Of a stretch of DNA of 24,982 nucleotides, positions 6,519 through 24,453 are shown in pieces; position 1 is the first letter of the stretch; each line of letters opens with the position of its first letter. A model generated the notes under the pieces. That model was not told where the DNA came from. It worked only from the letters and a program-made list of their open reading frames with translations, and searched no databases. The position numbers and the translations under genes are program-made. The stretch is from a virus. The stretch is from the IMG/VR virus record IMGVR_UViG_3300023199_000261, positions 1 to 24,982 of that record, one strand, 5' to 3'.

Positions 6519-7621
6519 GGTAGGACCTCCATAATTGTTAAACTGGCTTTACTGGTGCCCCCGAAAAATCTATTGGAATTGTTCCCGTTCAAATAAAGCG
6601 TATCGCTCTCCGGTCCAATTCTGACTTTGTAAGTTCTTGAAGATGTTGTTCCCGCTGCAATAACTGAGCGAAAACTAATCGCTCCATCAACTCCCTTGTG
6701 GTAACGAGTTCCGCTAGCCATAGATGCCGCTAAAGCATCGGCTTGACTGTCAACAAAAAGAGCTACGGTTATATGTTTGCCCCAGTCAAGCCACAAGCAC
6801 GGTATGTCAACGTGTATCAACAGGACGGACGCTGCGTTTGACGGAGTAATGCTGGCAGCTAAGATTTGCTCTCCCTCCGTGTTCTGCGGAATGGTGTCAT
6901 CAGGGGGGATTTGTGTTGTATGGCTGGAATACGTGGCATTTTCATCCGTGACTACTTGCACTACCTTTCCTCTAACAGGTGAATGCGTGATTATGAAGGA
7001 AACTATATCGCCTGGGCTGTAGCGTTTAATATCGGTCGAAGTTCCTTCTGTGATTGAAGTTCCTTCCACTTGCGGCACTGCTGCGTTGTAGGCCGTAACG
7101 ACGGCCGCATCAGTCATACCAATATTCAATCCTCCGACCGCTTGAAAAAAAAGTCCATCGTAAACGCATGTAATGACCGCACCTGATCTAATATCTGAAC
7201 TGCTTAAGTCTTCATTTCCTGCTTTCTTGATGCTTTTAGCTCCCAAACCGTTGACATTGAGAGTGCTGGCTCCGGTGTTGGCGTTGGCTGCTTTGAAGCG
7301 AACTAATAATCCTGCTTCGTAGGCACTTGGCACTGCGGTCAAGGTCACGCTGTAGGCATTTGCACTGCCAGTATCCGGTTTGTAATTTCTGATCGTATCC
7401 GATAGCGCGATTGCCTTCAACATAGTCAGCCAGGTAACTTTCCTGAGATTGCCACCAGCCTCGATAAGCAGATCGTCACCGGTTGCCAATGACGATGTGG
7501 CGGTCTGAGCATCGATCGCATCTTTATTGATTGTGGCACCCTCCAGAAAGGCATGCAGATCAGCGGCGTAATACTCGCCGTTGTCGTCGAAGCTGGATGG
7601 TCGGGTCAGGTGTCCTGACAT
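6515..7621 (-). CDS. Tail fibre-like protein
   Basis: 368 residues. Residues ~75-165 form a repeat-like beta domain common in phage fibres (NYKPDTGSANAYSVTLTAVPSAYEAGLLVRFKA, then GASTLNVNGLGAKSIKK and GAVITCVYDGLFFQAVG). The C-terminal part (EGEQILAASITPSNAASVLLIHVD to TLYLNGNNSNRFFGGTSKASLTIMEV) is Ser/Thr/Gly-rich and beta-strand-like, as in receptor-binding tips. It probably binds the host surface. Its TGA overlaps the ATG of the next gene. Confidence 0.7.
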   Translation of the reverse strand: MSGHLTRPSSFDDNGEYYAADLHAFLEGATINKDAIDAQTATSSLATGDDLLIEAGGNLRKVTWLTMLKAIALSDTIRNYKPDTGSANAYSVTLTAVPSAYEAGLLVRFKAANANTGASTLNVNGLGAKSIKKAGNEDLSSSDIRSGAVITCVYDGLFFQAVGGLNIGMTDAAVVTAYNAAVPQVEGTSITEGTSTDIKRYSPGDIVSFIITHSPVRGKVVQVVTDENATYSSHTTQIPPDDTIPQNTEGEQILAASITPSNAASVLLIHVDIPCLWLDWGKHITVALFVDSQADALAASMASGTRYHKGVDGAISFRSVIAAGTTSSRTYKVRIGPESDTLYLNGNNSNRFFGGTSKASLTIMEVLP

Positions 7622-8259
7622 CAGGCTTGGCCTCCTGTGGCTTCAAAGTAGGCGCAGTGCGGGGTCTCGAATCGTCCGCCCCAGAGCCATCCATTACTCT
7701 CGAAAGCCCGAACTACATCAGGGTGAATCATTCCCTTCTCCGGATCATACGGCTCTCCGTAGAGGTTCCGGGCCGGGTCGATGGTGATAGCGGCTCCATA
7801 GGCATGCATGGACAGTTCCGCGCTGCCTTCCCGGGCCCGGAATGCGTAGGTCTCTCCGATAAAGTCGGCCCCGGCATCCCGGATTCCTTCCGGTCCCATT
7901 TTTTCCAGTATCTCATGGAATATTTTGACCAGACTGGATTCCACTTCGGTGTGAATCGTGCAGTGGTTCAGGACCACTTCCGGCATCACTGCCAGTCGCA
8001 TGGCATACGGTAACGGCATCCGGGACAGGTAAACCCCTTCCCACGAACGAGAAGGTTTACCTGTATTCCGGTCGATCTCGATCTGTCCAAAAAATAGATC
8101 AAAGGCTTTACTGAACCGCTTCGGGAACGGACTGGTTCCTCGGGGCTTGGGAGGTAGCTTGACGGGATTAACCTCTGTTTCATTTGTGCCGGGGCCCTGA
8201 TTAAAGGAGCTGTTGACGCCCTTTGGGTCAGTCGTTTGTTCTGTAGTTGCTTTATTCAT
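7621..8259 (-). CDS. M15 peptidase-like protein with degraded zinc site
   Basis: 212 residues from ATG 8259 (AAGGA 7 bases upstream). A Pro/Asn-rich N-terminus of ~45 residues precedes a domain resembling the phage M15 group: RAREGSAELSMHAYGAAITIDPARN..GEPYDPEKGMIHPDVVRAFESNGWLWGGRFETPHCAYFEA. The SxHxxGxAxD motif keeps Ser150, His152, Gly155 and Ala157, but the Asp ligand is Thr159. The final [M]HF motif reads AYF (Tyr204), with a displaced His201. It is likely non-catalytic, perhaps a virion peptidoglycan-binding or structural protein. It lies between capsid and fibre genes and ends in TGATG coupling to the fibre. Confidence 0.65.
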   Translation of the reverse strand: MNKATTEQTTDPKGVNSSFNQGPGTNETEVNPVKLPPKPRGTSPFPKRFSKAFDLFFGQIEIDRNTGKPSRSWEGVYLSRMPLPYAMRLAVMPEVVLNHCTIHTEVESSLVKIFHEILEKMGPEGIRDAGADFIGETYAFRAREGSAELSMHAYGAAITIDPARNLYGEPYDPEKGMIHPDVVRAFESNGWLWGGRFETPHCAYFEATGGQA

Positions 8260-8261
8260 AG

Positions 8262-8528
8262 TTATTCCTTCCACGCGGTCAGCGCGTCTTTTTTTTCCTG
8301 TTCGGTGAATCCGGACAGTCCATCTTTGATTTCCTGTTCCCGGTAATACCGGGCCATTTCGTATTCTGAACTTTCGTCGTTTACCGCTGCTCCGGATACG
8401 GCCAGGGACTTCGGCACGGTGATGCGCTTCCATCGTCCCGGAAGCGGACACTGATCTCGCATGTCGACCGGCCGCATGGCGCAGTCACGTTTTCCAGTGT
8501 CCAGATTTTCGTATTCGTAGAACGGCAT
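8262..8528 (-). CDS. FmdB-like small protein lacking zinc-ribbon cysteines
   Basis: 88 residues. The start MPFYEYENLDTGKRDCAMRP with the later DQCPLPGRWKRI is reminiscent of FmdB-type zinc ribbons (MPxYEYxC..C..), including phage versions, but the CxxC pairs are missing; only two single cysteines remain. The C-terminal half is charged and helical (SSEYEMARYYREQEIKDGLSG). The family link is weak and function unknown. It ends 3 bases before the M15-like gene. Confidence 0.45.
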   Translation of the reverse strand: MPFYEYENLDTGKRDCAMRPVDMRDQCPLPGRWKRITVPKSLAVSGAAVNDESSEYEMARYYREQEIKDGLSGFTEQEKKDALTAWKE

Positions 8529-13855: not shown

Positions 13856-13930
13856 TTGCGGGGACGGGATTCGAACCCGTGACCTCCTGGTAATGAGCCA
13901 GGCGCGCTAACCAGCCTGCGCCACCCCACG
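13856..13930 (-). tRNA. tRNA with anticodon CAU, initiator-like (C1-A72)
   Basis: A full cloverleaf can be drawn. Acceptor: positions 2-7 pair with 66-71 (one T-G pair), while position 1 is C facing A at 72. D stem is GCGC/GCGC with a GG-containing loop. Anticodon stem is CCTGG/CCAGG with loop CTCATTA, giving CAU. The variable loop is AGGTC. T stem is ACGGG/CCCGT with loop TTCGAAT. CCA is not encoded. The unpaired C1-A72 is the hallmark of bacterial initiator tRNA. However, only two of the three anticodon-stem G-C pairs are present, and pair 11-24 is C-G, the elongator type. So it is initiator-like but mixed. It lies in the late operon just upstream of the holin. Confidence 0.9.
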
Positions 13931-13944
13931 GTTATAATTACCGT

Positions 13945-15372
13945 TCAGCCGGTAAAGCATCCCGGTAAAGCTTCCTGCGATTGCGCCACTTCCATGGCCT
14001 CTCTTAAATCGGTGACGACGCTGCTTTTCACTCCCGCGTGGCCTACGACAAGCTGTCGCTTGCAGGCGATGGCTCCCACCACTGCATCTCCACGGTCCGG
14101 AGATTTACCCTTCATTTCCTTTTTGGGCTCAAGTTGAAGACGTCCATCCTCCCGCTCTTTTTTGCGTCGCTCGCATAGCTGCTTTTTCAAAAGGGAGTCC
14201 TCGGGCAAAATGATTGTGCATTCCTCAATGCGTCTCCGAGCCTTCCACCACATTTCGGCTCCCCGGTTAAAGTAATGAGGATCGTCCGGCTTATCGTTGT
14301 TTTCGACAGGAATGATATTCCAGCCCAGCTGACGAAGTGCGTAGATGTAGCCGTAACCCATACCGCTGGCGTCTCCGTAGATCATGCCCTCACGGGCCAG
14401 TCCATTGGCTTTGTAGAGTCGAACAAACCGAGCCGTCACCGCATCCTTGTTGCCGTCGAGTTGGCGCCATGCGTCCGGTATTTTGACCCGGTTGCCTTCG
14501 CGGATTGCCAGCACGTTTTCGTCTGAGGATTCGGCAAAGTCGCAGAAGGCAACCACTTCCCCCGGTTGCCAGGTCGGGGCCATCCGATAGCAGTTCTCGA
14601 TCAGCCCGTAGGGAATGACCGTGCCGTCATCGATATCCAGCCCAAACTTTCCGAGGATCATCGACCGAAAAATGTCGCTGTCCTCGCCATACTTCCGCCG
14701 CATCTTTTCCACGCGTTCCGGCGTGATATGGGGACAGTCTTCCAGCGTCACTTCATAGACTTTGTAGGAGCCATCCTTTGAGCGGATAGCCTCCGCAAAC
14801 TGTCCGATCCGTCCGCCCGGAGAAGAGACCAGCAACAGCATGGTCGGATTGCATCGGTCGATGGCTTCAAAAATATCGTCGCGGATCGATTTAGCCTCAT
14901 CGACGATGATCAGGAGCGGCTTTCCGGGATAGGCGTGATATCCCTCAAACCGTCCGCCCTGGTCCGTCGCACGTCCGATGATCGTGCTGCCCTCGGGACT
15001 GCGGATGTCCTTGTCGTTAAACACCCATCCCGGATACCGCGATTGATGTTCGTGCAGGGCAGGCATCACCTGATCTTTGAGCTGCGGTGTCGTTGCCGAC
15101 GTAATGACCACTGTGGAGCCGGGGAATTTTTCGGCGCACCAGAGCGCCAGTGTGGCAATCAGGATGGAAGTCTTTCCCGATTCGTTCGGAGTAACACAGG
15201 CCACTGGCGGCACATCCTGGGTAATCTGTGCCTCCACATCCCACATCACTCCCGCTTGCCAGTTGTAGATCGATTCTTCGCGTGTCCTACCATTGAAGCC
15301 CAAACGGACAGTGGCATATTCCACGGGGTCCATCCGGGTTACGTCGAATTCGTGATTAATTCCGTAACCCAT
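13945..15372 (-). CDS. terL: Terminase large subunit
   Basis: 475 residues with GGAGG 6 bases before the ATG. The ATPase domain has Walker A TPNESGKTS (61-69) and Walker B LLIIVDEA (153-160), with a coupling motif near LLLVSSPGG. The nuclease domain has acidic residues in FCDFAESSDE (Asp278), IYGDASG (Asp334) and SPDRGDA (Asp426/429), consistent with an RNase H-like fold. It packages and cuts phage DNA at the portal. It follows the small subunit directly and precedes the tRNA by 14 bases. Confidence 0.93.
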   Translation of the reverse strand: MGYGINHEFDVTRMDPVEYATVRLGFNGRTREESIYNWQAGVMWDVEAQITQDVPPVACVTPNESGKTSILIATLALWCAEKFPGSTVVITSATTPQLKDQVMPALHEHQSRYPGWVFNDKDIRSPEGSTIIGRATDQGGRFEGYHAYPGKPLLIIVDEAKSIRDDIFEAIDRCNPTMLLLVSSPGGRIGQFAEAIRSKDGSYKVYEVTLEDCPHITPERVEKMRRKYGEDSDIFRSMILGKFGLDIDDGTVIPYGLIENCYRMAPTWQPGEVVAFCDFAESSDENVLAIREGNRVKIPDAWRQLDGNKDAVTARFVRLYKANGLAREGMIYGDASGMGYGYIYALRQLGWNIIPVENNDKPDDPHYFNRGAEMWWKARRRIEECTIILPEDSLLKKQLCERRKKEREDGRLQLEPKKEMKGKSPDRGDAVVGAIACKRQLVVGHAGVKSSVVTDLREAMEVAQSQEALPGCFTG

Positions 15373-15907
15373 TACCGGCCTCCGCGTTCATTTTGAGGTA
15401 TCCCTGGCGCAGAGAATGTAGCTTGTCGTAATCCTCGGGCTTGACCTCAACCTTGTGATTCACATCGATGTTGCCGGTCAGGTTGAGATTCAACTTGCCG
15501 TGGATGCTGGCCAGTAGCGTCATGTAGTCCTTCGCCAGCTTAGCCGCCTTCCGTCCGGCATCGGTATTTCCGGAAGCCATGGCCAGAGCGTGCCACTTCA
15601 CCGTTGCCTCTTCGATCCGGGCAAGGTTACGCTCCGGTGTCGCACCGGCGCGCTGCATTGCCTGGGCAATCACTGCTGCAATGCTCGGATTTTTACGCAG
15701 TTCAGAGCCACGCGCATTCGGGCTTTTGTAGCCTGCACTGGCGGCGGCATAGGTTTGGTTGCCCGTTTGTATGTAGACAAGGACAAAGGTCTGTTGCTGG
15801 GCGGAAAGAGATTGGAAACCGGCGGGCGCTTTGAAGTGATCGAAGCCCGGTAAAAACCCGCCGGTTTCCGGGGAAGGTGGCGATGATGTAGACTCGTCTG
15901 TCAGCAC
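15356..15907 (-). CDS. terS: Terminase small subunit (Terminase_2-like)
   Basis: 183 residues from GTG 15907; no clear ribosome site is visible and no better start exists nearby. Residues ~34-80 (LSAQQQTFVLVYIQTGNQTYAAASAGYKSPNARGSELRKNPSIAAVI) follow the phage small-terminase helix-turn-helix pattern. The remainder is helical, then a polar Asn-rich segment. It would recognise the packaging site and recruit the large subunit. It overlaps the large-subunit gene by 17 bases. The G-tract array just upstream could be its DNA target, which is inference. Confidence 0.85.
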   Translation of the reverse strand: MLTDESTSSPPSPETGGFLPGFDHFKAPAGFQSLSAQQQTFVLVYIQTGNQTYAAASAGYKSPNARGSELRKNPSIAAVIAQAMQRAGATPERNLARIEEATVKWHALAMASGNTDAGRKAAKLAKDYMTLLASIHGKLNLNLTGNIDVNHKVEVKPEDYDKLHSLRQGYLKMNAEAGNGLRN

Positions 15908-15957
15908 GCCCGCATCTTACACCCGCTTTTTTAAGTTTTTTTCAAACGTCCACTTTT

Positions 15958-15996
15958 GGGGGAGTTACGGGGGAGAAGCGGGGGAGTTACGGGGGA
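15958..15996. repeat. Four G5 tracts at exact 11-bp spacing
   Basis: GGGGGA begins at 15958, 15969, 15980 and 15991, with 5-base tails GTTAC, GAAGC, GTTAC and CTTAA. A 17-bp unit GGGGGAGTTACGGGGGA is repeated exactly at 15958-15974 and 15980-15996. The plus strand can in principle fold into a four-tract G-quadruplex with 6-base loops. The array lies 50 bases upstream of the small terminase start. In the minus-strand transcript it reads as C-runs. Confidence 0.8.
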
Positions 15997-16027
15997 CTTA
16001 ATTTATTGACGGTCATTTTGAGGTTCC

Positions 16028-16166
16028 GTTTACATGAAATGAGCGTGAGATTTTTGTGTAGACAATGCTGTAAACTTTTAGATATCCACTTCTATAACAA
16101 ATGCTTGCTTATCCTGTTTACAGTAGTTTACATCAAAACAAAAAAACTTTTTTGTAGGCGTTTACA
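16028..16166. repeat. GTTTACA iteron-like motifs (five copies)
   Basis: GTTTACA occurs at 16028-16034, 16116-16122, 16126-16132 and 16160-16166. Its complement TGTAAAC occurs at 16069-16075. Five exact 7-mers in 139 bases of non-coding DNA next to a primase-helicase gene suggest binding sites for a replication initiator or a regulator. Spacings are uneven (10 bases between the third and fourth motif by position, larger elsewhere), so these are not regular plasmid-type iterons. Confidence 0.5.
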
Positions 16167-16206
16167 GAATGAGACAGAATAAAGCAGAACCATTCTGTGT
16201 CATTCT
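16166..16206. repeat. 15-bp inverted repeat AGAATGAsACAGAAT
   Basis: AGAATGAGACAGAAT (16166-16180) and ATTCTGTGTCATTCT (16192-16206) are inverted copies with one mismatch in 15 and an 11-base spacer. An overlapping pair AAGCAGAA (16182-16189)/TTCTGCTT (16203-16210) is also inverted. The site lies about 20-60 bases downstream of the predicted promoter start. It could bind a dimeric or tetrameric regulator or an origin-binding protein. Confidence 0.65.
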
Positions 16207-16234
16207 GCTTCATTAATATACCATATAAAAGGTA

Positions 16235-16264
16235 TATATAGGTTTCGCCGTTATCAACCGTCAA
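16235..16264 (-). promoter_or_regulatory. Sigma70-like promoter reading toward the terminase genes
   Basis: On the minus strand TTGACG (16264-16259) is followed after 18 bases by TATATA (16240-16235). Transcription would begin near 16228 and run into the terminase-lysis-capsid operon. A 7-bp inverted repeat, ATATACC/GGTATAT (16216-16222 and 16231-16237), overlaps the -10 box and start, and would suit an operator or a hairpin at the RNA 5' end. Confidence 0.45.
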
Positions 16265-16492
16265 CAAATTGTCTATTAGCCTAATAGCCAGCACTTTACG
16301 CTGTCTACAGTTAGCTTTTCTGCCCTGTGTAAATAACAGGCACAAAAAAAACCTCCGTGTTTCAGCCTCCTTTTGAAAGAATCTGCCAACCGTTCGCCGC
16401 CATGTTATGGCTTTTTCAAGCAAGCAAGGAAGATTCGCGGGGCATTCGGTCGGACAGATCAATTACCTTACTTACTGTCTCAGTCGTTTCCC

Positions 16493-16526: not shown

Positions 16527-18845
16527 TTAAAAATATTCCCGGGCTTCCCGGCATTGCGGCTCTACCGCATCATAATAAACATCCCGCCAGGCCTGCCGCT
16601 CACGCACCCCATAGATCACCCGTATTGTTGAGTCACCCTGCCGCCGGTGTTTCTTACGTTCCTTCCAGTCCGGCTTGTATTTGAAGACCCCGCGCATGAG
16701 GTGGGCGTTGTCTTTGAAATACTGGTGAACGCTTTCAAAGTCGCACCAATCGGCGTAGGCGCTGAAGATATCGTCCGCCTTAACCCATTCATCGGCTTCC
16801 CCGTCTTCCATCACAGCTTCAAGGAAAGTAGGTAGCGAGTTGACGTGCAGGGCCATATTTGCGTCCAATTTCTGCCCTGCTTGCGTCCGTGAAAAATGCC
16901 CCCGCTCAGCCAGCCGCCGGAATCCCTCCATTGCCCAGGCAAATATCCCCTCCCGTTCTCCTAGGAAATCCAAATGCTTGGACGTTTTCACCGCGCCAGC
17001 CGGAACGGTGACTTCAAACGGAACCTGGATAAACCGCCTCCAGAATCCCCGCGAGCCGTCTGGAGTTTTAAGAAAAACGTTGCTGGTGCCGACGATCTTG
17101 CCTTGAGGACGGTAGGCAAAGACCTGCCGGTTCTTTGGGTTGATCTGAATTTCCTCGCCCGCCGCAATTGATTTGATCAGGTCCAGGTGGTCGAAAGAAT
17201 TAGAAGCCAGCTCCCCTGCGTCGTAGAGGAGCCTCCCCACCAAACATTCACGGGCATGGCCGTCCTTGAGGTCATGCAGCGGCAGGGCTGTGCAGTTCTC
17301 CGGGCCTAGAAGCATCCGGGCCACTTCCACAAAGGTGGATTTACCCGTCCCTCCTTCGCCAAAAAACACAAAAAAGGCGTGAAAGGGGTTCCCGGGCACG
17401 CATAAATAGCCCAAAATTTCCTGTAATTGCTTGCGTATCTCCTCATCTGGCTGACGTTCCTCCAGCCAGGCCAGCCACTGAGGGCATCCGGCATCCGGAT
17501 GATACTCCACCGGAAGCTGGTTATTGGAAAAATAGTCCATCCGGTGGCCGGTGACCCTGCCCGTCCGGGTGTTGAGCATTCCGTTGCGGACATTGATCAC
17601 CTCGGAATCGTGATCGTTCCAGACCACCGAAGCCATTCCCCGGGCGGATTCGACCGCCATGACCTTTACGACAGATGCGTAGAATCGATCGCTGACCGCC
17701 TCCCGGAGAAGACCGACCTGCTTCGCGGCATCCGCCACGTATTCTCGGGCGGCTTCCATGTCGACGCCGTGCCAGACTCCGTTGACGTAACGCCAGAAAC
17801 GCTGCTGTGCATACCGGAGTTGCTTTTCCCGGACCAGAATTTCAGCCAGAGAGAGCTGATCCACCTTCACACCTCCAGACTTGCCCAGGCGCACACAGGA
17901 GCCATACAGTGCCCAGCCGGGCAGGCTGGCCTCCTCCGCCCAGTCCAAAATCGTCTGCTTCCAGTCCTCGGAGTGATCTCCCGCCTTTGCCTGCTCTTGA
18001 ATCCAGTCAGAAATGTCCGCCTTGGGAGGACATTCCGGCCACTTGGTTTTTAGGTCGACCATCCCCAGGCTCCGCACCCGGCCATATAATTTACGTGCCA
18101 GTATCCCGACCCGCTTGACTCCCGCTGCATCATTATCAAAAAGGATGATCACATCACGGTTGGCCAGCACTTCGGTAAATTTCGATTCCCACTTGCTTGC
18201 CCCGCCTGCGTTCGTTGTCGCCAGAATGCCAATCTCTTCCAGACTTTCGACGTCCTTTTCGCCCTCGACAAGGAAAACCGGCTGATCCAAATCCGCCCGG
18301 CGTAGTTCCGGCTGTCGATACAACACCTGATCTGTTCCCTCCAGGGACCATATCCACCAGCGGCCGTCACTGTCTCTGCGCGCCTTTACCGGCTTTCCTG
18401 TCGCGCCTTTAATCTCCTCGCCCTCCCGGGCCGGTCGGCGTTGGCGGAAGTCCTTAGGCTCCATCCGCACCGTCTGGTGACGTAGCACCCCGTCGTCGTC
18501 CAAATAGTCATAAGTTCGGACAATCTTGCTGCGCGGTGCGCTTTCTGGCCGCGCCTCATTTTTGACACCGGCCAATTCCTTGTAATGCCGGATTGCATCT
18601 TTCTGATCACGACCATCGATCTGCTCGATAAACGTGATCTCATCGCCACCGAGCCCGCTGCTGAAACACTTGAACTTCCAGAATTCCCCTTTCCGGAAAA
18701 CGTGGAAGCTCGCCGTTTTTTCCTTCTGGAAGGGACAAACGATAAAAAAATCCTCGGAATTTCGAGGAGTGGAAAACCCGTATTTTTCTAACAGGTCCGG
18801 CAGCGGCAGCCTCCGCTTGCATTCTCTGATCTGATCACGTGACAT
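16527..18845 (-). CDS. Primase-helicase: CHC2-like zinc finger (degenerate), Toprim, D5/SF3-type ATPase
   Basis: 772 residues from ATG 18845, which overlaps the recombinase stop; the frame is open upstream but that region codes for the recombinase. Residues ~10-75 are a CHC2-type primase finger, yet only Cys37 (VCPFQKEKTASF) and Cys60 (FKCFSSG) remain: the usual His after CPF is Gln40 and the last Cys is Ser. Toprim motifs follow: FLVEGEKD (Glu194) and ILFDNDAAG (Asp237/239). The C-terminal half has a D5_N-like region and Walker A GEGGTGKST (496-504) with a GTSNVF segment downstream, as in phage/plasmid D5-type helicases. It would prime and unwind DNA at the phage fork. Two hairpins follow the stop. 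Confidence 0.85.
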   Translation of the reverse strand: MSRDQIRECKRRLPLPDLLEKYGFSTPRNSEDFFIVCPFQKEKTASFHVFRKGEFWKFKCFSSGLGGDEITFIEQIDGRDQKDAIRHYKELAGVKNEARPESAPRSKIVRTYDYLDDDGVLRHQTVRMEPKDFRQRRPAREGEEIKGATGKPVKARRDSDGRWWIWSLEGTDQVLYRQPELRRADLDQPVFLVEGEKDVESLEEIGILATTNAGGASKWESKFTEVLANRDVIILFDNDAAGVKRVGILARKLYGRVRSLGMVDLKTKWPECPPKADISDWIQEQAKAGDHSEDWKQTILDWAEEASLPGWALYGSCVRLGKSGGVKVDQLSLAEILVREKQLRYAQQRFWRYVNGVWHGVDMEAAREYVADAAKQVGLLREAVSDRFYASVVKVMAVESARGMASVVWNDHDSEVINVRNGMLNTRTGRVTGHRMDYFSNNQLPVEYHPDAGCPQWLAWLEERQPDEEIRKQLQEILGYLCVPGNPFHAFFVFFGEGGTGKSTFVEVARMLLGPENCTALPLHDLKDGHARECLVGRLLYDAGELASNSFDHLDLIKSIAAGEEIQINPKNRQVFAYRPQGKIVGTSNVFLKTPDGSRGFWRRFIQVPFEVTVPAGAVKTSKHLDFLGEREGIFAWAMEGFRRLAERGHFSRTQAGQKLDANMALHVNSLPTFLEAVMEDGEADEWVKADDIFSAYADWCDFESVHQYFKDNAHLMRGVFKYKPDWKERKKHRRQGDSTIRVIYGVRERQAWRDVYYDAVEPQCREAREYF

Positions 18846-19483
18846 TAATAGGCTACCTCCAGATACTGCCGGGCTTGTGCCTCCGGCACCTTTTTGTTGA
18901 AAAGCGGAACCACGTTTCCAGGTTTGGGCAGTCGATCCGCCGGGCTGACCACCTTTCCAGCCAGATCCGGAACACAATGCAGATAGATAGCAGTAGTGCG
19001 GTCTTTCCCGCCCTTGCCATGTCGAACCACTAGCATCTTGCGCTCGAAGTCGAGGTCTTTAACCCGGAGATGCACTACCTCTTTAAGTCGCAGTCCGGAG
19101 CCATAGGCGAGTTCTGCCATGATCCGGGTAGGCCCTGCCATCGCATCCAGAAGTCGGGCCGCCTCATGCTGATTGAGCCATTCAGGGATCCGCTTTCTGG
19201 TCTTGGCATACTGCCACTTTTTCAGATCGCCGAGCGGTTCCCCCAGAACCTCCTTGAACATGAATACAAGGGCACACAGAGCCCCCCGTTGAAGAGAAGC
19301 GGATTGATTTGCCTTCCTGGAGAGAAAAGTTGTCACCTTGTCTTCCCGTGAGAGGTCCGGATGCTTCAAAGAAAAGTCATAAAACTGTCCTGCGATCGGG
19401 GCATATTTGGTCCATGTGCGCTTGGAATAGTTCAAATCCCGGCACCGCTGAATCACCCGTTTCTGTAGCTGCTGTTTAGTCAC
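18845..19483 (-). CDS. Truncated tyrosine recombinase, integron-integrase/XerC-like
   Basis: 212 residues from GTG 19483. Residues ~15-95 form the N-terminal SAM-like core-binding domain. The catalytic domain begins normally: AYGSGLRLKEVVHLRVKDLDFE contains the box I arginine (Arg132) and RHGKGGKDR the beta-hairpin lysine. It then stops. The HxxR box and the tyrosine nucleophile region are absent, although relatives are about 310-340 residues. The wording around YGSGLRLxE..xLRVKDxDFE and a final VPEAQARQY resembles integron integrases (which read LPdALArKYP at that point). It is probably inactive as a recombinase. The TAA overlaps the primase ATG (TAATG), so the remnant is kept in frame within the operon. 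Confidence 0.75.
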   Translation of the reverse strand: MTKQQLQKRVIQRCRDLNYSKRTWTKYAPIAGQFYDFSLKHPDLSREDKVTTFLSRKANQSASLQRGALCALVFMFKEVLGEPLGDLKKWQYAKTRKRIPEWLNQHEAARLLDAMAGPTRIMAELAYGSGLRLKEVVHLRVKDLDFERKMLVVRHGKGGKDRTTAIYLHCVPDLAGKVVSPADRLPKPGNVVPLFNKKVPEAQARQYLEVAY

Positions 19484-21043: not shown

Positions 21044-21576
21044 ACGCGCTCCTTCCACCCCGGTAAGGTTTTGTGAAATCCAAATGAATTCTTCCGGGTC
21101 CGCTCATGCTTACACCAGAACACATCCCCACTCATTCCCTCGGGATATTCCAGCGTATTGAGAACCCGAATAAATGCAGCACTTCGCAGACAACACCCGC
21201 CATTTCCCACCCGGATACCATTGCGGCCAGACCATTTAAGCGGCCACGGCGCGCCGATATAGTCCCATTTCAAAAAGTCATGTTCCCAGCATTCCGGGTG
21301 CACCGGAAAGCCGTCCGGCTCGATCGAAAGCTGGTGGGATTGCCCCGGTCCCAAGAGCCACCCCATGTCCACCGCCTGGTAACGCATGGCATCCTCATAG
21401 TCCAGCGGCACACAATGCACCCATCGGACCCCATCTATCCCCGCATCAACCGGGCTGATATGCACCCATTCGGAAAACGTGAACCGTTTTTTAAGCCAGC
21501 GGAGAATATTCCCCGCATGGCTACAGCCCTGACCGTCCAGGAACACAAGCTGAACTGTTGGCAAATGAACCGTCAT
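21031..21576 (-). CDS. DUF5672-like putative glycosyltransferase
   Basis: 181 residues. The core reads IEPDGFPVHPECWEHDFLKW, then DYIGAPWP, then RVGNGGCCLRSAAFI, and later GDVFWCKHER. This order matches the DUF5672 family as I know it, which is found in glycan clusters and thought to be glycosyltransferase-like. The ATG overlaps the upstream stop by 4 bases, making the third coupled gene of the glycan block. No membrane segment is seen. The exact sugar chemistry is unknown. Confidence 0.7.
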   Translation of the reverse strand: MTVHLPTVQLVFLDGQGCSHAGNILRWLKKRFTFSEWVHISPVDAGIDGVRWVHCVPLDYEDAMRYQAVDMGWLLGPGQSHQLSIEPDGFPVHPECWEHDFLKWDYIGAPWPLKWSGRNGIRVGNGGCCLRSAAFIRVLNTLEYPEGMSGDVFWCKHERTRKNSFGFHKTLPGWKERVCRH

Positions 21577-22478
21577 CTTGCTAGTTCCTCCATGTATTCG
21601 TCCCTCAATTCGTTAAGCGGTAGCGGTTTCATTCTGGACCACGCATAACGGCCAAACTTAGCCACAGTATCCCAGCCACGTGACACCCGACCGCTAACAG
21701 ATTCAAGCAGACTGATATCCCGGAAATCATCACCCCCAGCCGCCGCTATTGCCCCGTGGAGCCTTCCACTGACAATCCGCTTAAACTTCATAATAGTCTG
21801 TAAAAGACACCGATAATCTGTGCTGTGCATAGCCACCGTATTACTGTGATGAATAGCCCACATCCGGCGTTCATAGGCATTGTGCAAAACTACCGGACAG
21901 TTGCTTTTTTCTGCCAGGGCGATGGCCTGATTAAAAAGCCTCTCAACATCGCTGGCGATGACCACCTGATCGTGCATCGGCGCACGTTGTGCAATGAGCA
22001 TAGACCGGGCCGCAAAAAGTGCCGGGCAGGGCAGAACCCGGGCATTATTACTCAGAGCATTGCAAAAGCCCATCGCCAGTTCATCCCGGCAGATCACCGC
22101 CTTTGCTGCCTTGATCGTATCCAGAACCAGAGGCGTCTGGTGGTCATTCAGGTGCGCCTCGCTCTCTGCACCAATGCCAATTAAATAAACCGGTGTCCCG
22201 TGAATCTGAGCCTGCTGGTAGACCGGCTCATTGGATCGAAGCCAGTCCGGAGTCCCGGCCACTACCAGAGCATCAAAGTGCCACGGATCACCGGGCACCC
22301 AGGTATTGGCTCGTGCGTTGGCGCCGCCTGAATCAGACCGGCTGATCAAGTGGTTACGATTATAAAACATTAACTGCCTAATCTGCCAACCCGCATGCTC
22401 CAGCAGATAAAGAACCCCCTCCCGGATAAAATCATCGCCGGGGTTCCAGCACGTGGTAGTTGATACCAGAACATTCAC
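21573..22478 (-). CDS. Polysaccharide pyruvyl transferase-like protein (PF04230-like)
   Basis: 301 residues, GTG start overlapping the upstream TGA (GTGA). The N-terminus (VSTTTCWNPGDDFIREGVLYLL) matches the N-GDD-I start of the pyruvyl-transferase family. A glycine-rich VAGTPDW segment follows, and near residue 237 comes the family hallmark SGRLHGAIAAA. Members add pyruvate ketals to sugars in exopolysaccharide or cell-wall glycans, but many are only fold relatives. Its place between a GT9 gene and a DUF5672-like gene supports a role in building or decorating a glycan. The TGA overlaps the next ATG. Confidence 0.75.
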   Translation of the reverse strand: MNVLVSTTTCWNPGDDFIREGVLYLLEHAGWQIRQLMFYNRNHLISRSDSGGANARANTWVPGDPWHFDALVVAGTPDWLRSNEPVYQQAQIHGTPVYLIGIGAESEAHLNDHQTPLVLDTIKAAKAVICRDELAMGFCNALSNNARVLPCPALFAARSMLIAQRAPMHDQVVIASDVERLFNQAIALAEKSNCPVVLHNAYERRMWAIHHSNTVAMHSTDYRCLLQTIMKFKRIVSGRLHGAIAAAGGDDFRDISLLESVSGRVSRGWDTVAKFGRYAWSRMKPLPLNELRDEYMEELAR

Positions 22479-23581
22479 GCTGCTACCTCCGTCGGCGTAT
22501 TTTCTTCCATCAGTTTCCAGACCTTTGCCGTTACCCGCTTGGGATCAATCATGTCCAGAGCCACGCAACGGTGTGCTTCCGCACCGGGACAGTTTTCCGG
22601 CATCATTTGACCCCGCCGGGAGTGATGGAGACAAGGAGCGCAAGGCAGGTTACCGGACAGAGCTACCATCCGCGGCCCCGGCGTCACCCGTAGCTTCCAG
22701 GGAAACGATCCGTAGAGAGCCACGCAAGGCACATCCAATGCCGCCGCCGCATGAGTAATACTCGAGTCAGGAGCTACCACCACGTCACAAGCGCGTAAGA
22801 CCGCGCATGCCTGCCTGAACGTCGGAGCCGGTTTCAGCGTGTGCAAGTTGATAATTTTTCCCGTGCTGCATTTGACAGGTGGTTGCCCCGGGGCGGCGAA
22901 GATAACAACCTCTCCACCCCGAGCATGCACGTCCGCAATGACTTCGATAAGCCGTGCATACGAACGCACAGGAGAAGAGGCATACAACTGAATACCCACC
23001 ACTGGCCGCTTTTTCCCGTTCGGTAGAATTTTCTCAGCCAAGGCCAATTCTGAATCATCCAAATAGATATCCATCTTCCGGCTGCAAATTCCCGGCTTTA
23101 ACCCGAAACAGTCCGCAAAGACATCCACCGCATGGTGCGTTTTAGCCAGTGGCCCCCATTCGATCGCATTTTCCAGCGTCACAATCGCATCAGCCGTGCC
23201 CCACACATGGGAGGGAACCGGATACGTAACCAGTTCATCAATGTGCGGATTGCCGTGCAGAACCGGGGATACCCGGTCAGAACAAGCCACCTGCAGTATG
23301 ATTCCCGGCCAGCGGCTTCTCAGTTCCCTGAAAATCGGTGTGCAGAAAAGCAGATCCCCAAACCCGCCGGGCCGCACGACGAGAACAGTAGAATCATTCC
23401 AGTCATCATCCGGATCAAAGGCGAAGCCCATGGAATTCAGATCGATAGCTTTTAACTGCGCCTCACGGGAAAAGGACGTCAGATATTCTCCCGCATTAAC
23501 CGATTCCATTAAATATTCCTGCTCAGGCTGGAATATTTTTCCATGTAGCGACACCTCTTCTGTAAAAGTGACCGTGTGCAT
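22475..23581 (-). CDS. Glycosyltransferase family 9 (heptosyltransferase-like)
   Basis: 368 residues. After an unusual N-terminal extension of about 60 residues comes a Rossmann start typical of GT9 (VVRPGGFGDLLFCTPIFREL), and near residue 275 the donor-site block APDSSITHAAAALDVPCVAL followed by GSFPWKLRVTPG. GT9 enzymes transfer ADP-heptose or related sugars to LPS core or other glycans. GAGG lies 7 bases before the ATG, and the gene starts 3 bases after the endolysin stop. It ends in a GTGA overlap with the pyruvyl-transferase-like gene, so the two are translationally coupled. A Cys/His-rich stretch (CAPCLHHSRRGQ...C...C) near the C-terminus is also seen in some environmental GT9 proteins. 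Acceptor unknown: host LPS, virion glycan or modified DNA are all possible. Confidence 0.85.
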   Translation of the reverse strand: MHTVTFTEEVSLHGKIFQPEQEYLMESVNAGEYLTSFSREAQLKAIDLNSMGFAFDPDDDWNDSTVLVVRPGGFGDLLFCTPIFRELRSRWPGIILQVACSDRVSPVLHGNPHIDELVTYPVPSHVWGTADAIVTLENAIEWGPLAKTHHAVDVFADCFGLKPGICSRKMDIYLDDSELALAEKILPNGKKRPVVGIQLYASSPVRSYARLIEVIADVHARGGEVVIFAAPGQPPVKCSTGKIINLHTLKPAPTFRQACAVLRACDVVVAPDSSITHAAAALDVPCVALYGSFPWKLRVTPGPRMVALSGNLPCAPCLHHSRRGQMMPENCPGAEAHRCVALDMIDPKRVTAKVWKLMEENTPTEVAA

Positions 23582-23584
23582 AAT

Positions 23585-24223
23585 CTACCTCGTCGCCTGA
23601 AAGTGCATGAAGTCCCGGCCCCATGCGCGGCCGCCGGACTTCCATCCGTGTTTTTCAAATATATCGATGACCCCTTCCGGCATCCGCGCTGCCTTGCGCT
23701 TCGTCCACAGGCCGTTGTGATCCGGGTCCAGGTCTATCGCTATCCCCCAGCTATGCCGACTGTATTTATCCCCACCGCGCATAGGACGGTAGTTGTAGCA
23801 TCCGCCAAAGAGGTCCAGTCCGTAGGCCTGTAACGCTTCATGCGTCCCAAAGTATTCCTGAACTTCCTCTAAAATCTTCCCTAGACTGGGAGCCACCAGC
23901 GCATGAACCCGGGTCGTCGTTACAATCCGGTCTTTCTCCCAGGCGATCCGCATCGGGTAAGGAAAATCGAAAGTGACCAGATGTTCGTCCCCCGGTCGGC
24001 CATAATAACTCACCAGCGCGGAATAATTATCCTTCGGAAAAGGAGACTGAGTATTACCCGCATCGCGGTTACTGTCGTTGTTCGTCAACGAACGCTGATA
24101 ATTAACCAGAGCCGCCTGAGTCATCGGCCCAGGCATGCCGTCAATTGGCCCCGGATCAAACCCCTTATCTGCCAGATACTTCTGGCCGAGCTTAAACACA
24201 CCCTCTTTGAGTTGTTCCTTCAT
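23585..24223 (-). CDS. Endolysin: peptidoglycan-binding domain plus M15 (VanY/D-Ala-D-Ala carboxypeptidase-like) peptidase
   Basis: About 212 residues from ATG 24223. Residues ~8-43 form a peptidoglycan-binding repeat (FDPGPIDGMPGPMTQAALVNYQ type). The C-terminal domain carries the M15 zinc-site signature SRHSWGIAID (His157, Asp164) and a terminal MHFQ (His207), so all three expected zinc ligands are present. The family cleaves peptide cross-links or stems in murein, so this is the likely lytic enzyme. No signal peptide or signal-anchor is evident, so release would depend on a holin. A GTG at 24259 would add 12 residues and overlap the previous gene; I prefer the ATG because it precedes the binding domain directly, although its AAAGG is rather far (about 14 bases). 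Unusually, the gene lies about 10 kb from the holin and spanins. Confidence 0.85.
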   Translation of the reverse strand: MKEQLKEGVFKLGQKYLADKGFDPGPIDGMPGPMTQAALVNYQRSLTNNDSNRDAGNTQSPFPKDNYSALVSYYGRPGDEHLVTFDFPYPMRIAWEKDRIVTTTRVHALVAPSLGKILEEVQEYFGTHEALQAYGLDLFGGCYNYRPMRGGDKYSRHSWGIAIDLDPDHNGLWTKRKAARMPEGVIDIFEKHGWKSGGRAWGRDFMHFQATR

Positions 24224-24234
24224 CGCTTTACCAT

Positions 24235-24453
24235 TTACCTTTCGTTGTTGAATTCCCACTGCCTCATCCAGTCCAGGCTGGAGCGTAGGCGTTGCCGCCG
24301 GTTGCTCTGAGCCTTGCGCCCACCCCTGCGCCCCAGAATCCGGGCCGCTGACTTAAAATCGCGTGCGTAGTGGTTATCCACCAGCCACCATGCCTTTCCC
24401 TGAAAGGACATCTTGCGCCAGGTGGCGGGAACCGGGATATCATCCACCTTCAT
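24235..24453 (-). CDS. Small basic hypothetical protein
   Basis: A 72-residue protein. A purine-rich AAGGGGG lies about 7 bases before the ATG and the start overlaps the upstream stop by 4 bases. The C-terminal half is strongly basic (GRRGGRKAQSNRRQRLR), as in small nucleic-acid-binding phage proteins, but I see no defined fold. It lies directly upstream of the endolysin gene. Confidence 0.6.
   Translation of the reverse strand: MKVDDIPVPATWRKMSFQGKAWWLVDNHYARDFKSAARILGRRGGRKAQSNRRQRLRSSLDWMRQWEFNNER

Follow-up and report, generated by a model that had tools for sequence, protein, structure and literature searches.

In a viral DNA of 24,982 bases (the linear IMG/VR virus record IMGVR_UViG_3300023199_000261, probably a fragment and hereafter called the window), four G5 tracts follow one another at exact 11-bp steps upstream of the small terminase gene terS. 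The array and its two flanking boxes form a composite that also occurs beside terminase genes in three further viral contigs and that, judged by sequence comparison, is a recurring cis-element. The array is probably the landing site of a protein by which either packaging or the expression of late genes is initiated. As a tentative first choice, it would be a nucleoprotein site heading the packaging module and working like the pac region of SPP1.

Phased G5 tracts upstream of the small terminase gene

The GGGGGA starts are located at positions 15958, 15969, 15980 and 15991 of the plus strand (Table 1), and the 17-bp sequence GGGGGAGTTACGGGGGA is duplicated exactly (15958-15974 and 15980-15996). 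This layout, to which the initial annotation had drawn attention, was confirmed, and it stands out from shuffled sequences and Markov windows. GGGGGA alone is not over-represented in the window, with 16 copies for 23.8 expected. The spaced pair GGGGGN6GGGGG occurs three times for 0.20 expected, a number that none of 100 shuffles reached, and none of 40 third-order Markov windows contained at least three G5 or C5 tracts phased at a common step of 6-30 bp. Base composition does not explain the phasing of the array. The exact 17-mer was also found in two other viral contigs, there as a single copy and in different contexts, and these matches were dismissed as chance.

The array overlaps no open reading frame (ORF) of at least 20 amino acids and sits in an intergenic gap, 51-89 bp 5' of terS, so that its placement upstream of this gene was correct. 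Since terS is encoded on the minus strand, the G-rich strand is its template and the terS sense strand shows four C5 tracts. A plus-strand G-quadruplex, as had been suggested, is indeed predicted: with four G-tracts and loops of 1-7 nt, the array is the only G3+N1-7 motif of the window and ranks first by G4Hunter score (2.12). DNA folding prediction returned no structure, with a program that is presumed not to model quadruplexes.

Recurrence of the layout and a shared composite element

When all viral contigs were scanned for four G5 tracts spaced by 11-bp steps and bordered by bases other than G, 43 IMG/VR contigs were retrieved (about 34 groups, counted by eye), compared to 12 contigs for the 10-bp version. 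This 3.6-fold excess corresponds to P 3e-5 on contigs and to P 0.001 on groups (about 33 versus 11). According to their neighbours, the arrays fall into two main classes, terminase-linked and replication-linked, whereas the other groups fit neither clearly. The terminase-linked arrays are found at a GpA-type large terminase gene terL (L018, L129, L150 and L151), a T7-type terL (L149), a PHROG_2 terL (L101/L109) or at terS and terL (L019, where the array is 36 bp 5' of the small terminase gene, PHROG_2538). The array lies at most 600 bp from terL in seven of the 16 groups with a detectable terL, where 1.76 are expected (P 2e-4; thresholds picked after seeing the data); cut-offs of 300 bp and 1000 bp gave 4 versus 0.88 (P 0.007) and 7 versus 2.87 (P 0.005), respectively. 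This test left out L144, whose weak terL match was below the cut-off. Three arrays of a looser G pattern (L010, L038 and L048) adjoin terminase genes as well, L038 just under the Pfam cut-off, and were uncounted as they are outside the complete scan; by eye, L010 has no flank boxes.

Aligning the terminase-linked arrays on the late-gene strand made the composite visible. In the window, L018, L129 and L150 alike, the first base of a T6-8 tract lies 31-33 bp ahead of the array (31 bp in the window and 33 bp in the other three); four or five 11-bp G5 units and then a TTGAC box follow, all beside terL. The distance from the last G5 to TTGAC is 9 bp in L018 and L129 and 20 bp in L150, i.e. 9 bp past one degenerate unit. 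Read on the late-gene strand, GTCAA precedes the first C5 by 9-10 bp (by 20 bp in L150), and 25-27 bp separate the last C5 from an A6-8 tract. Both flank boxes are present in these four of the 35 array groups and in none of the 31 others (1/C(35,4)=2e-5), and among the 81 arrays of a looser set, counted with duplicates, TTGAC is confined to the same four. With shuffled flanks, both boxes arise by chance at about 4e-4 for the window alone, a value for a feature that was noticed after the fact. The terminase-side recurrence together with the shared flanks thus argues for a recurring composite cis-element. A relaxed version of the composite pattern, searched in 140 and 135 genomes, gave C-rich matches in 2 and 4 of them, barely above the 1 and 2 genomes matched by a reversed control, and yielded no new case.

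Unlike in the window, the element of L018, L129 and L150 lies between a small helix-turn-helix (HTH)-like ORF, which directly precedes the array, and the portal genes, and its spacers are TTATTT/TAAATT instead of AGTTAC. The HTH-like ORFs are related to one another (53% and 32%). That of L150 has weak excisionase/HTH profile matches (E 0.011-0.044) and no PDB match, and that of L129 has no phage match.

A G-quadruplex, or a C-rich i-motif or rut RNA, might act as a polymerase block or Rho loading site in the terS leader. In addition to the quadruplex motif described above, the C-rich terminase transcript strand in six of the seven other terminase-linked arrays (p 0.125) is consistent with such a role. 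We nevertheless consider it improbable, as a pure quadruplex requirement accounts neither for steps of exactly 11 bp and their 3.6-fold excess over 10-bp steps nor for the conserved flank boxes. Because of the exact helical phase, this excess and the constrained flanks, a protein-binding array is favoured over a bare quadruplex, and the presentation of identical helix faces to a protein, the other option raised initially, fits best. The least probable explanation is a chance or slippage repeat without function: the nearest TerL relatives lack the array, which is a metagenomic singleton, but the Markov simulations, the recurrence in contigs and the shared flanks speak against it.

Packaging site, operator or origin

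Among the protein-binding readings, a pac site ranks first, followed by the operator of a late activator and by an iteron origin as close rivals. A small terminase gene of the SPP1/SF6 type (PF03592) adjoins the array, and direct repeats are found at the terS promoter and start. According to the excerpts of the literature used here, SPP1 pac consists of direct repeats, spans the terS promoter and start and is intrinsically bent (PMC4737164, PMC6316719); it physically overlaps the terS promoter, and the ring of TerS subunits binds the pac region through its HTH domains. The window has in common with SPP1/SF6 pac and its G1P-type TerS the TerS family (by Pfam), the place at the terS promoter and start, the direct repeats and, by prediction, bendable DNA. 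In contrast to the window, SPP1 pac comprises boxes A, B and C of other sequence, reaching into gene 1, and these excerpts describe no G5 tracts or 11-bp array for it. Predicted curvature near 15995 belongs to the top 0.05-0.12% of the window for spans of 63-94 bp. The best PDB match of TerS is the SF6 TerS DNA-binding domain (2cmp/4zc3/3zqp), although weak (E 0.28-0.92); an AlphaFold model of TerS calculated without an alignment had a pLDDT of 51 and was not used.

In a pac site of this kind, B-DNA would offer the same face to a protein four times, at intervals of one helix turn, with the GTCAA box on one side and, on the other, phased A-tracts that are expected to cause a bend. An HTH protein in oligomeric form, most probably the phage's own TerS, might line up along the four tracts, bend the DNA and recruit TerL, upon which packaging would start. 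The same protein may also control terS expression.

Several observations weigh against the assignment as pac. SF6 TerS displays little sequence preference in pac DNA binding, as far as the excerpts tell (PMC4737164). The terminase of L018, L129 and L150 which their elements serve, is of the GpA type, unlike that of the window, and two unrelated TerS proteins would not be expected to read one sequence. Furthermore, L018 and L129 are mutually related, the HTH-like ORF of these contigs has no homologue in the window, and the flank-box criteria, like the terL distance thresholds, were chosen after seeing the data. The array is absent from all 16 prophage loci fetched by TerL and from all three Akkermansia phages. 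Phased arrays are also not general 5' of PF03592 terS genes, with a mean score of 16.86 for 92 upstream regions versus 16.36-16.82 for controls. These regions come from a survey of 387 Verrucomicrobiota, 299 Bacillota and 299 Pseudomonadota genomes (phyla inferred from named centres) plus one further search, which gave 93 loci. The proposed check of conservation therefore has a divided outcome, as the nearest TerL relatives lack the array and the layout recurs beside terminases in unrelated contigs. The original suggestion of a candidate pac site gains from the PF03592 terS, from a terminase-side recurrence above expectation and from the flank boxes in three contigs, but the operator of a late activator, or the iterons of an origin, would be roughly as plausible.

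As the composite occurs with different terminases, a common reader or a DNA-shape signal is kept in play, which weighs on all phage-specific readings. GTCAA - 9/10 bp - (C5N6)4-5 - 25-27 bp - A6-8 (late-gene strand) could be an undescribed element at the start of packaging and head genes, common to unrelated SPP1-type and GpA-type tailed phages and read by one common factor or as DNA shape, not by each TerS. We regard this as conceivable but doubtful.

Alternatively, and with somewhat lower probability, an Ltr-, Alt- or RinA-like activator would bind the four repeats as a late-promoter operator and turn on the operon starting with terS. In the available part of PMC13123087, the usual target of late activators is a set of four imperfect direct repeats just 5' of the late promoter; the four repeats of TP901-1 Alt, about 11 bp each, are at -76 to -32, and the phi13 Ltr repeats are found at the ltr 3' end. 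These operators, including that of RinA, resemble the window in having four tandem direct repeats 5' of a packaging-led operon, the Alt repeats covering about 45 bp. They differ from it in that no activator gene was found in the window, that the phi13 repeats measure 18 bp and that a G5 core is not described in this part of the source. An arrangement that fits the Ltr operator pattern by analogy is seen in the L065 family (L065, L085, L102, L134 and L143), where an activator-like gene (131 amino acids, PHROG_248, E 3.6e-5) has a four-G5 array at its 3' end, 2.1-3.6 kb 5' of terL. The HTH-like ORF directly before the array in L018, L129 and L150 points in the same direction. In the window, the sense strand of terS has a sigma70-like pair (TTGAAA at 15945 and TGTAAG at 15916) that would place the array near -87 to -49, but this pair is weak (9/12, 18-bp spacer), a separate promoter scan gave no site at its position, and TTGACR on the G strand has, by eye, no -10 behind it. 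Moreover, no activator-like gene was found beside the array or among the seven small window ORFs scanned, the upstream neighbour being the primase gene, 531 bp off, and in L018, L129 and L150 the array as operator would separate terL from the head genes.

Less likely still is a replication origin, in which the D5-type primase/helicase, a possible candidate initiator, or another initiator would bind the array as iterons and melt the AT-rich gap that separates the primase gene from terS. Origins with iterons located 3' of primase genes are a known system, according to the excerpts used. Arrays of the same layout are found just 3' of primase or helicase genes (L121, L056, L023 and L130) and in initiator genes (L020/L043, L073 and L141). 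The AT-rich gap of the window contains five of the seven GTTTACA/TGTAAAC copies of the window within 139 bp (16028-16166), where 0.12 are expected in the gap and 2000 shuffles never gave more than two; by their sequence and clustering, these are likely sites for a regulator or initiator. As in origins of phage-inducible chromosomal islands (PICI/SaPI) and other iteron origins, a primase-helicase gene is followed by an AT-rich gap with repeats and then by terS. Unlike in PICI/SaPI-type origins, the window array is at the terS end, and its G5 units are on one side of the AT-rich region instead of forming two flanking iteron sets; a second G5 set was not found in the gap. Dispersed extra iterons accompany five of ten replication-linked but one of seven terminase-linked arrays, and the window has 4 versus 2.1 expected (p 0.17). 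Furthermore, none of 60 DUF5906 primase loci has a phased G-run array nearby, and the gap is 3' of the primase gene, yet the array is 531 bp from the end of that gene, which is on the same strand as terS.

In L140, L145 and L146, the array is about 470 bp from a PF03592 terS whose product matches the window TerS (36% over 106 residues, E 3e-6), and is one among several dispersed iterons in an origin-like arrangement. Direct and inverted GGGGTCGCAA iterons are dispersed there around AT-rich DNA with the same 11-bp G-tract phasing (e.g. L146:5990-6350), and from its sequence this region is likely a phage origin. Origin-like GGGGGAAAGT(T/C) iterons, direct and inverted, also occur just 3' of the primase gene at L121:4980-5480.

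Gene neighbourhood, relatives and implications

The recognised genes of the window are all on the minus strand, in the order endolysin-like gene, sugar genes, D5-type primase/helicase, a 619-bp gap, terS, terL, tRNA-Met, a portal-sized ORF and major head protein.

Table 1. Positions of the array, its flanking sequences and the adjoining genes
Feature	Position	Strand	Remarks
Array of four G5 tracts, exact 11-bp steps	15958..15996	+	units GGGGGAGTTAC, GGGGGAGAAGC, GGGGGAGTTAC, GGGGGA; TRF period 11
TTGAC box (GTCAA on terS sense strand)	16006..16010	+	10 bp from last G5
T6 (15927-15932) and T7 (15936-15942)	15927..15942	+	A-tracts ~10 bp apart on terS sense strand
AT-rich gap	16000..16349		28-40% GC per 50 bp; ~350 bp
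Small terminase terS	15356..15907	-	PF03592 (E 2.2e-11) / PHROG_51; predicted GTG start 51 bp from array
Large terminase terL	13945..15372	-	PHROG_2
D5-type primase/helicase (Zn_ribbon_DnaG, D5_N, DUF5906)	16527..18977	-	PDB match 7ola, E 1.2e-9
terL of contig L129	25464-27506		gap to array 266

The AT-rich gap also holds an inverted repeat with 16-bp arms (16165-16180 / 16192-16207, 94%), built of roughly 10-bp ATTCTG-like units, and a perfect 13-bp inverted repeat with a 30-bp loop is present within the 5' end of terS (15814-15826 / 15857-15869). The tRNA-Met gene (CAT, 13856-13930), directly 3' of terL, is the sole Rfam match. A tyrosine-recombinase-like ORF (18845-19483, 212 amino acids) covers PF00589 in part, overlaps the start of the primase ORF and appears truncated. 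Pyruvyl-transferase-like and heptosyltransferase-like genes occupy 21573-23581, and ORFs 7621-8451 and 23585-24259 resemble, by eye, related peptidase-type endolysins, the profile test having been carried out on 23585-24259 alone.

The nearest named kin of TerL are those of Akkermansia phages (32-35% identity) and of Luteolibacter/Akkermansia prophages (up to 39%; Luteolibacter 37-39%), and by its TerL sequence the phage groups with Verrucomicrobiota phages and prophages. Most relatives fetched by TerL carry a different TerS type, as judged by eye. TerS gave no match in phages and viral contigs, and a search with the capsid protein gave no relatives. The gap DNA gave nothing beyond short chance matches. 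TerL found four distant viral loci among the viral contigs, and the primase seven loci that are too distant and lack such an array. The strongest upstream array of the 93 PF03592 loci belongs to L200 (Verrucomicrobiota), where a set of three 11-bp units (CCCGTTGTA..) stops 2 bp short of the terS start and, as in the window, has its C-tracts on the terS sense strand; its TerS gave no BLASTP alignment with the window TerS.

No G5 tracts phased at 11 bp beside terminase genes are described in the excerpts drawn on from the open-licence PMC literature on terminase and pac, phage G-quadruplexes, iterons and late activators (PMC11331095, PMC4737164, PMC9611059, PMC6092414, PMC7145576, PMC6316719, PMC13123087). 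Four direct repeats before late or packaging genes, on the other hand, are described there for phages of Gram-positive hosts (PMC13123087). The way in which a phage tags its own genome for packaging has been worked out in a handful of model systems. If our reading is true, a helically phased terminase-side element that is recognisable from its sequence would allow packaging or late-control sites to be predicted in metagenomic phages, and its occurrence with unrelated terminases would raise the question of which factor reads it.
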